A stretch of DNA of 45,122 nucleotides, taken from an uncultured Pelagibacteraceae bacterium (GTDB lineage Bacteria; Pseudomonadota; Alphaproteobacteria; Pelagibacterales; Pelagibacteraceae). How positions within the stretch are numbered: position 1 is the first letter of the stretch; each line of letters opens with the position of its first letter. A program made the translations under genes and the position numbers. Positions 42,525-44,769 of the stretch are shown piece by piece. The notes under the pieces were generated by a model, which saw nothing but the letters and a program-made list of their open reading frames with translations, searched no databases and was not told the origin of the DNA. The stretch is taken from positions 1 to 45,122 of the forward strand of contig CACLWL010000007.1 of NCBI GenBank assembly GCA_902610655.1. Reading direction: 5' to 3'.

Positions 42525-42794
42525 TTAAATACTTACTTTCTCAGATCTAAGTAATCGGAGCTTTTTCCTAATCCCACCTATTCCAGAGTAACCTCCAAGC
42601 CCTCCATCTGATCTAATTACTCTATGACACGGTATTTTGGGTGCGTAAGGGTTTTTAGCACATGCATTAGCAACTGCACGAGCCGATTTTGGTCTTTTAA
42701 TGCCTATTGCGACTTGTTTATAAGTTTTAACCTGACCTTTTGGAATAGTTTTTAAATAGTTCCAAACTTTTTTTTGAAAAAATGTACCTTTCAT
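42525..42794 (-). CDS. ogt: Minimal O6-alkylguanine-DNA alkyltransferase domain protein
   Basis: DNA repair protein that transfers alkyl groups from O6-alkylguanine to its own cysteine. From ATG 42794 it is 89 residues, only the DNA-binding/active-site domain: FFQKKVWNYLKTIPKGQVKTY (helix and wing), ARAVANACAKNP with the conserved arginine finger region, the active-site C56 in IPCHRVIRSDG, and GGYSGIGGIRKKLRLL. The N-terminal domain of full Ada/Ogt proteins is absent. Because cysteine, not tryptophan, is at the active site it is not a classic ATL. The frame continues 27 codons upstream to 42875, through a GC-rich block whose codons do not look like this genome, so I start at the internal ATG. 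Confidence 0.88.
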   Translation of the reverse strand: MKGTFFQKKVWNYLKTIPKGQVKTYKQVAIGIKRPKSARAVANACAKNPYAPKIPCHRVIRSDGGLGGYSGIGGIRKKLRLLRSEKVSI

Positions 42795-42805
42795 CTTAAA
42801 AACCC

Positions 42806-42990
42806 CTGTTTCCTTGCACTTTTTACAGTGCAAAGAACAGTTGTTTTGGCACGTCGTTGTAGGCGCTACCGCCATGCCTCCCGCCTCACAATTTTAGCGC
42901 TACTCTGCGAAGCTTTCTGCCTCCTGGCTTGGTCCTCTCGGCATTTCCCCAGTCGGTCAGTTAAGAGTTACCTCTTAATTGGAGAAATAA
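42806..42990 (-). ncRNA. Candidate GC-rich structured RNA or leader upstream of ogt
   Basis: Bases 42841-42960 contain 69 G/C of 120 (about 57%), roughly twice the surroundings. Structures visible: TTAAGAG-TTAC-CTCTTAA (42961-42978); a 9-pair stem of 42859-42868 with 42895-42903 (GTA-G-GCGCTA against TAGCGC-TAC, one bulge); TGCC 42918-42921 with GGCA 42940-42943; and a long hairpin at 42806-42840 of about 14 pairs with one bulge and a six-base loop. On the minus strand that last hairpin is followed by GGG and U5, terminator-like, and the ogt ATG comes three bases later. Strand is inferred from this. I found no match to SRP RNA, tmRNA, RNase P, 6S RNA or a riboswitch core. Confidence 0.45.
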
Positions 42991-43084
42991 TACCAATAAT
43001 AATAAGTTGTATTAATCACTTTTTGATTGTTTTTTTATTTTTTTTCTAAAATTAGTGAATAGTGGGGATAACTTTTTTCATTGC

Positions 43085-43558
43085 TTAATTGAACCATCTA
43101 AAACCCTCATACATAGCAATTCCATAAATTGAATGTCTAATTAAAAAAATTAATGAGGTTTTCAGTGGTATATTTGTATTTCTGGCAAATATACCTTGTC
43201 CGGTAAATGGCAAAAATATCAATAATGGAGCTAAAGTAGTTAGAGCCCCAAATATGAAGCCTGAAAAATAGGACATTTTAAGACCAATTAATATAAAACA
43301 AATATAATAAATAATAGCCCAACAAATCGATAGGTAATAGTGAAATAGCCAACCTAGAACAACCTCATATTTGAACGAATCCATTTCTGCAATATTAGGG
43401 TTATAAAATTTGGCTTTTTTAAGCATATAATAGGTCCATCGACCAACGACAGCCCAGGAAGGTTCAGGAATACCCAAAAACTTCATTAAAAAACCCAAAA
43501 TATCAAGAATTATACACGAAAAAATACCAGCAATAATTATACTAAAAATATCGATCAA
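43085..43558 (-). CDS. DUF2938-family membrane protein
   Basis: A 157-residue inner-membrane protein with four predicted helices. The pattern of DUF2938 is visible: an N-terminal helix ending LDILGFLMKFLGIPEPSWAV-like (VGRWTYYM follows), the GWLFHYYLSICWAIIYY helix, APLLIFLPFTGQGIFA, and the ending RHSIYGIAMYEGFRW. The function of the family is unknown. The start is TTG at 43558: an AGGA Shine-Dalgarno lies at a suitable distance and no ATG fits. It sits six bases after the stop of a tiny two-helix protein gene, suggesting the two work together. Confidence 0.85.
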   Translation of the reverse strand: MIDIFSIIIAGIFSCIILDILGFLMKFLGIPEPSWAVVGRWTYYMLKKAKFYNPNIAEMDSFKYEVVLGWLFHYYLSICWAIIYYICFILIGLKMSYFSGFIFGALTTLAPLLIFLPFTGQGIFARNTNIPLKTSLIFLIRHSIYGIAMYEGFRWFN

Positions 43559-43815: not shown

Positions 43816-44769
43816 ATGAATGAGCTTACAACAGACCTAAAATCACTTCATGAGGCAACTTTAAATAACCTCAAAAGTTCTAAAGCAAATAATACTTTAA
43901 GAGCTTATAAATCAGATTTTAAAGATTTCGGAGCTTTTTGTGCAAAACATGGCTTAAATTCTTTACCATCAGAGCCTAAAATAGTTTCTTTATACCTAAC
44001 CCATCTTTCTAAAAATTCGAAAATAAGCACTTTAAGAAGAAGACTAGTATCAATTAGTATGGTTCATAAGTTAAAAGGGCATTATTTGGATACAAAACAT
44101 CCAATTATTGTTGAAAACTTAATGGGAATAAGAAGGGTAAAGGGAAGCATTCAAAAAGGAAAAAAACCTATATTAATCAATCATTTAAAATCTATAATTA
44201 ATGTAATAAATGAACAAAAAATTGAGGATATTAAGAAGTTTAGAGATAAATCAATAATATTAGTTGGCTTTAGTGGGGGATTTAGACGAACTGAGTTAAT
44301 TTCAATCGATCATGAAGATTTAGAATTTGTACCTGAGGGGCTCAAAATCACTATTAAAAGGTCAAAAACTGATCAATTCGGTGAAGGGACGATTAAAGGA
44401 CTGCCCTACTTCACTAATAAAACTTATTGTCCAATTGTTAATCTTAAAAAATGGTTAGAAATTTCTAAGATTAAATCTGGACCAATTTTTAGAAGATTTT
44501 CTAAAGGTTTATCTTTGACAGAAAAAAGATTAACTGATCAATCAGTAGTATTATTAATGAAAGAATATTTAAATTTAGCAGGTATAGAAAATAAAAATTT
44601 TGCAGGTCATAGTTTAAGATCAGGATTTGCAACTGTTGCTGCCGAGTCTGGTGCTGATGAACGTAGTATTATGGCAATGACTGGTCATAAAACAACACAG
44701 ATGGTTAGAAGATATATTAAAGAAGCAAATATCTTTAAAAACAATGCACTAAATAAAGTTAAATTATAA
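43816..44769 (+). CDS. Tyrosine recombinase/integrase
   Basis: Site-specific recombinase of 317 residues. The N-terminal SAM-like core-binding domain (about 5-110) has NTLRAYKSDFKDFGAFC; the catalytic domain (about 120-310) holds the full set: R157 in GGFRRTEL, K184 in KRSKTDQ, H265 and R268 in GHSLRSGF, H291 in TGHKTTQ, and the nucleophile Y300 in VRRYIKEA. It is complete and should be active. Sequence style is closer to phage/island integrases acting on a short core site than to XerC/XerD, which also lie in other contexts. It is preceded by a near-perfect inverted repeat. No excisionase or phage genes are visible nearby. Confidence 0.93.
   Translation: MNELTTDLKSLHEATLNNLKSSKANNTLRAYKSDFKDFGAFCAKHGLNSLPSEPKIVSLYLTHLSKNSKISTLRRRLVSISMVHKLKGHYLDTKHPIIVENLMGIRRVKGSIQKGKKPILINHLKSIINVINEQKIEDIKKFRDKSIILVGFSGGFRRTELISIDHEDLEFVPEGLKITIKRSKTDQFGEGTIKGLPYFTNKTYCPIVNLKKWLEISKIKSGPIFRRFSKGLSLTEKRLTDQSVVLLMKEYLNLAGIENKNFAGHSLRSGFATVAAESGADERSIMAMTGHKTTQMVRRYIKEANIFKNNALNKVKL

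Follow-up and report, generated by a model that had tools for sequence, protein, structure and literature searches.

The locus examined here raises the question of what a GC-rich, strongly folded block of DNA represents immediately in front of ogt, the gene for a DNA-repair alkyltransferase, in an uncultured member of the Pelagibacteraceae. The window, i.e., the whole stretch analyzed, comprises 45,122 nucleotides of contig CACLWL010000007.1 (GenBank assembly GCA_902610655.1). A first-pass annotation made from its letters had described the block as a probable functional RNA that resembled no RNA class it could recall and whose layout also fitted a cis-acting leader of ogt. The class is already catalogued. 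A covariance-model search against Rfam (cmscan) returned a known family, IMES-2 (RF02035), matched at full length on the minus strand at 42846-42985 (model positions 1-141 of 141, 134.1 bits, E = 1.3e-34; the curated cut-off is a gathering score of 54.7), and IMES-2 alone among the Rfam models reached an E-value below 1 at this block. The window RNA has the same four hairpins and conserved loops as IMES-2, with no difference in membership; the additions made here are the host family, the genome sites, an upstream box, and the pairing between the loops of P3 and P4. IMES-2 was reportedly discovered in 2009 in ocean sequence data. It is reported to be abundant in marine samples, and its hosts are taken here to be SAR11, which are abundant ocean bacteria. 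No published function for IMES-2 was found in the literature searched, where the single whole-word match to 'IMES-2' was a squid genome paper.

The compositional and structural description of the block held up well. The best 120-base stretch has 70 of 120 bases as G or C (58.3%, at 42848-42967) compared to 28.4% in the window, and across the 45 kb 120-base windows of at least 50% G+C occur in the GC island of the IMES-2 RNA alone. The region 42796-42990 of the minus strand folds at -71.5 kcal/mol (z -5.6), a value equaled by none of 200 shuffled sequences; the 140-nt core, folded without the terminator, stands out less (z -2.5, with 3 of 200 shuffles as good). The range originally assigned, 42806-42990, differs slightly from the boundaries of the RNA, which comprises the matched core and a terminator extending to 42798. 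The features of the locus are listed in Table 1.

Table 1. Features of the IMES-2 locus and its neighbors in the window.
Feature	Positions	Strand	Basis
89-aa protein, MGMT (ogt) DNA-binding domain, outside the RNA	42525..42794	-	PF01035, E 5e-32
116-aa ORF, the ogt frame open through the terminator into P4, ATG inside the RNA	42525..42875	-	
3' terminator hairpin, then GGG-U5	42798..42840	-	Fold z -6.3; sequence
IMES-2 RNA core	42846..42985	-	cmscan, RF02035 positions 1-141
P4, 9-bp hairpin, one non-standard pair	42848..42878	-	Rfam structure; covariation
P4 loop AGCGCC, proposed second half of the kissing helix (the window copy can form 5 of the 6 pairs)	42862..42867	-	Covariation
P3, 8-bp hairpin	42883..42913	-	Rfam structure; covariation
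P3 loop AGCGCU, proposed first half of the kissing helix	42896..42901	-	Covariation with the P4 loop
P2, long hairpin, internal loop GAAA / CAAG, GAGA tip	42917..42960	-	Rfam structure; lower stem 9 of 11 pairs change on both sides
P1, 7-bp hairpin, four-base loop	42961..42978	-	Rfam structure; 100% of cells paired, 34 sequences
Candidate -10 element TATTAT, weak	42987..42992	-	Consensus scan only: 2 sites against 1.2 expected by chance
Conserved 15-nt box upstream of the RNA, CAATCAAAAAGTGAT in the window and CAACTAAAAAGTGAT as family consensus; probable promoter element	43015..43029	-	Comparison of upstream regions
DUF2938 membrane protein, between the IMES-2 RNA and the recombinase	43085..43558	-	
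Tyrosine recombinase	43816..44769	+	PF00589

Conservation of base pairing was analyzed in an alignment of 34 diverse IMES-2 sequences (A1), the covariation of which supports the stems given by Rfam. With the six kissing pairs included, 93.5% of the cells of the structure are paired and 34 of the 44 pairs are changed on both sides, and neither value was reached by any of 500 shuffles, in agreement with the earlier view of the block as a functional RNA. A contact between the P3 and P4 loops was first suspected by eye. Loop columns 91-96 and 130-135 of A1 (n = 34) have a covariation score of 0.343 (shuffles 0.121), and the loop helix contains 24 doubly changed cells, compared to 6.0 in shuffles, and no one-sided changes. 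Double changes occur in three of the six kissing pairs, a number no higher than in shuffles (140 of 500 have at least 3), and six further pair types are present, which is weakly above them (34 of 500 reach 6).

The larger collection of IMES-2 sequences comprised 187 rows, 164 of them distinct after identical cores were merged and 163 after removal of L130, which lies at a contig end and has no upstream sequence. Among the 163, pair 94-132 is GC in 139, AU in 22, UA in 2, and broken in none, and pair 93-133 is CG in 144, UA in 16, AU in 1, and broken in 2. An unguided scan, which came after the suspicion by eye and used average-corrected mutual information with no structure supplied (effective number 31), placed these two pairs jointly at ranks 2 and 4 of 9,345. 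For the remaining four kissing pairs the scan gives no signal, as two are invariant and pairs 92-134 and 91-135 rank 778 and 2750; pair 92-134 is formed in 125 of the 163 sequences and the outermost pair 91-135 in 25. The P3/P4 loop combinations include AGCGCU/AGCGC, AGUACU/AGUACU, AGCACU/AGUGCU, AGUGCU/AGCAC, AGUUCU/AGAACU, and AGAACU/AGUUCU, and in one subtype, AUCGCU/AGCGCAU (34 sequences), the fifth and sixth pairs are retained only when a C is permitted to bulge out. A minimum of 12 changes of pair type at the kissing positions is needed on a tree that leaves out the loops, and a minimum of 20 on a tree that leaves out P3-P4. Independent double changes on well-supported branches were too few for a sign test: the loop-free tree gave 5 and 3 (P = 0.06 and 0.25) and the other tree 2 and 2 (P = 0.5), and every one of them went in the expected direction.

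Taken from these alignments, the P3-P4 kissing interaction is very probably real, and it probably forms within one molecule. The consensus printed by Rfam has both loops unpaired and mostly in capitals, i.e., strongly conserved, so the seed alignment of RF02035 may have been too uniform for the contact to be seen in it; an Rfam match line cannot show crossing pairs. The loop-loop covariation is an addition of the present analysis, and the contact is not claimed as unreported. A distinct P3-P4 module, with P4 of the form CGAAGGUAGNNCU..CAACAGCG, was observed in L119, L126, L208, L209, L210, L211, and L212. It spans five genera (g2, g3, g4, g6, and g10) on RNAs whose P1-P2 parts look ordinary, a pattern suggesting that recombination has exchanged the module.

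Conserved signals flank the RNA on both sides. Upstream regions were compared for 186 copies (133 from genomes and 53 from contigs, 172 of them distinct, L130 excluded), and in all 186 the best match to a 15-nt box begins between 43 and 46 bases upstream of the model. The box scores at least 10 of 12 in 163 of the 186 regions, compared to 1 of 186 shuffled regions, and four of its letters are identical throughout; taking the best match within a range in itself favors consensus letters. When the box pattern was searched in seven genomes, 41 sites were found, compared to 24 for the reversed control. Of 29 sites viewed in context, two are the boxes of IMES-2 copies and the other 27 fall within frames that stay free of stops for 100 codons or more, so the box may be dedicated to IMES-2; the remaining 12 sites, outside this count, are that of L263, where the contig ends early, and 11 others, including the IMES-2 box of G043. 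In G009 the IMES-2 box has GCGAT, a reading that the search pattern misses.

A sigma-70 promoter, with the GTGAT end of the box as the -35 element, was considered and set aside. Its -10 part, sought as at least four matches to TATAAT 15 to 18 bases past the box, was present in 113 of 186 regions and in 116 of 186 shuffled tails; hexamers with at least five matches were slightly commoner than in shuffled tails (38 against 26 of 186). As TATAAT-like hexamers are hardly above the shuffled level, the box alone is claimed, and it is probably a promoter element.

At the 3' end, the hairpin CTGTTCTTTGCACT..AGTGCAAGGAAACAG (42840-42806), which has one bulged A, is followed by GGG-TTTTT (42805-42798), AAG, and the ATG of ogt (42794-42792), an arrangement that had been described accurately. 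A simple terminator scan listed nothing at this position in the window, probably because of the bulge. The 60 nt 3' of IMES-2 fold at -16.8 kcal/mol or lower in 133 of 133 genome copies, a figure computed without a shuffled control, and a strict test requiring a U run recognized 82 of the 133 terminators; one genome copy with too little downstream sequence was excluded from both counts. The 116-aa version of ogt that begins inside the RNA has a doubtful start that gene callers may pick, and in the 89-aa form the Pfam domain begins at residue 6.

IMES-2 was detected in 134 of 197 genomes sampled from the family of the window, in exactly one copy each and in 12 of 14 genera. Among 77 genomes at least 90% complete, 44 have the RNA and in 33 it was undetected, so it is dispensable. 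A class-wide sample yielded IMES-2 in 3 of 385 genomes, and an order sample searched with a model built from our own alignment gave matches in 108 of 247; all of these genomes belong to the same family. Our own model, R1, was also run on 20 of the 63 genomes without a match and revealed no credible hidden divergent copy (6 of the 20 had matches up to E = 1, the best being 0.18). A phage-borne element was rejected as an explanation, as viral contigs gave no match to an exact pattern of P1 and its flank, a pattern of limited reach that fits 133 of 163 distinct copies, does not fit that of the window, and would overlook divergent copies, and blastn of the window RNA against 50,697 phage records found no match.

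The genomic neighborhoods of IMES-2 differ between genera. The genus of the window, g1, has ogt downstream on the same strand at a distance of 50 to 66 bases in 29 of 29 copies. The nine genera g2, g3, g4, g6, g8, g10, g11, g13, and g14 (96 copies) have an mnmA-like tRNA thiolase gene (PF03054) upstream on the same strand in 95 copies. In 92 copies the gene on the downstream side encodes a membrane protein and lies on the opposite strand, and no Pfam family was obtained for this membrane protein. Genera g7 (three copies) and g9 (six copies) have another neighborhood, with the gene for a 482-aa protein in common. Near the 105 copies of the 11 genera other than g1, ogt was found in no case, with mostly 1.5 kb searched per side and less than 1.4 kb of sequence available on one side for 10 of the 134 copies; the downstream gene tested for runs opposite to IMES-2 in 92 of these 105. 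The position before ogt is accordingly a feature of 29 of 134 copies in a single genus and is not conserved across the family.

The gene ogt itself is not tied to the RNA. In the complete, single-contig genome G009 an intact ogt, at 125101, lies 178 kb from IMES-2, at 303459, and all ten IMES-2-less genomes tested retain ogt. The 330 bases upstream of ogt in IMES-2-less genomes contain no GC island, with a maximum of 45% G+C per 60 bases compared to 53% in two positive loci. Among the best 80 of 465 ogt loci, 53 carry IMES-2 within 300 bases upstream according to a strict regular expression. Because other neighborhoods exist and ogt is kept without the RNA, IMES-2 is independent of ogt across most of the family. 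Further observations were made around the locus. In the genus of the window the tyrosine recombinase gene lies beside the locus both with and without IMES-2, and the place of DUF2938 is taken in some other loci by a small protein (MGSIDGE... or similar). Six genomes without IMES-2 (L230, L231, L232, L233, L235, and L236) have ogt directly after or overlapping an upstream acetyltransferase-like frame, as judged by eye.

RNA regulators of the family were searched for in 18 near-complete genomes, 10 with and 8 without IMES-2, the genome of the window not being among them. Hfq (PF17209), ProQ (PF04352), and CsrA (PF02599) were each detected in 0 of the 18, the searches being positive in 5, 1 (E. 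coli), and 3 of 14 controls, respectively. The 6S RNA (RF00013) had no match in 197 family genomes, that of the window included, under strict filters that a divergent 6S may escape, and was found in 5 of 14 controls, Caulobacter among them. The regulator set of the Pelagibacteraceae thus appears unusually bare within these samples. With the proteins undetected in 18 genomes, IMES-2 could be grouped neither with the Hfq-dependent antisense sRNAs nor with the CsrA/RsmA-titrating RNAs.

The reading favored here, to which we assign as a whole a probability of about 0.57, is that IMES-2 would be a gene on its own, free-standing and present once per genome, whose product is a non-coding RNA about 190 nt long that acts in trans. 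The gene would probably be transcribed from its own promoter, marked by the conserved 15-nt box, and transcription would end at its own terminator. The RNA is predicted to fold into four hairpins, with the loops of P3 and P4 joined as a kissing helix of four to six pairs that would leave little conserved sequence single-stranded. Such a compact molecule would most likely act by binding or titrating a protein, and neither as a leader nor as a classical antisense RNA. The free-standing, trans-acting character is highly likely, if slightly less so in view of the -10 counts, and the protein-binding mode has about even odds. With the loops joined, most of the conserved sequence would be base-paired, so that little seed would be left for antisense pairing; together with the undetected Hfq, ProQ, CsrA, and 6S, this favors a trans-acting RNA with a protein partner.

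The best-surviving alternative is an antisense small RNA, in which the P3 and P4 loops would open and pair with target mRNAs and the kissing helix would be the closed, inactive form. Both loops keep GUAG or a sequence near it followed by NNCU in the alignment, and the type of loop pair differs between lineages, as a recognition sequence could. This function is nevertheless unlikely, since the two loops change together, which pairing with one target would not need, little conserved sequence beyond the loops is unpaired, and Hfq and ProQ were undetected in 18 of 18 genomes.

The covariation of the loops fits pairing between molecules as well as within one, and IMES-2 could in principle form dimers or rings. 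Loops of the phi29 packaging RNA pair between molecules in this way, and the common IMES-2 loop AGCGCU is self-complementary. For ROOL and GOLLD, kissing loops between molecules have been described, part of them already detected by covariation (PMC12286853). ROOL, GOLLD, and OLE resemble IMES-2 in being structured RNAs partly held by kissing loops, some with covariation; they differ in being large, and they assemble into RNA-only multimers (PMC12286853). The IMES-2 RNA is small, and in our reading the near-equal lengths of P3 and P4 and the short linker between them also suit side-by-side pairing within one molecule, which makes dimers or rings quite improbable. An extended form of this proposal has a similarly slim chance: the loops would recognize each other between molecules and build an RNA-only or RNA-protein assembly in bacteria where Hfq, ProQ, CsrA, and 6S were undetected, paired substitutions would alter the loop code from lineage to lineage, and the P3-P4 module would seemingly be exchanged as an allele.

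A compact protein-binding RNA could also be a functional substitute for 6S RNA that binds RNA polymerase. The lack of a 6S match in the family would leave room for such a role, and IMES-2 shares with 6S RNA (RF00013) a free-standing bacterial gene and a similar length. The fold of 6S is a single long hairpin with a large central bubble. IMES-2 forms four separate, covarying hairpins and has no match to RF00013, and neither IMES-2 nor 6S was detected in 33 of the 77 near-complete genomes, so the 6S equivalent was rejected and a substitute role is very unlikely.

The least probable reading is a cis-acting leader or attenuator of ogt, whose domain would sense something and whose terminator hairpin would decide ogt transcription; it has in its favor the position 50 to 66 bases before ogt on the same strand in all g1 copies and a terminator ending three bases before the ATG, but stable hairpins also trail copies away from ogt, and as a general function it is refuted by the neighborhoods of the other genera, the distant ogt of G009, and the genomes that keep ogt without the RNA. 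Read-through from IMES-2 into ogt is possible in the genus of the window and may well feed ogt expression there.

IMES-2 is now placed in one bacterial family, as a self-contained gene that is present or absent among relatives. This placement, together with the loop-loop contact, turns the RNA into a testable problem, as strains that carry it can be set against strains that lack it, and the P3/P4 loop pair offers a clean mutate-and-compensate design. With Hfq, ProQ, CsrA, and 6S undetected in the sampled genomes, any regulatory RNA in this family would be of mechanistic interest.
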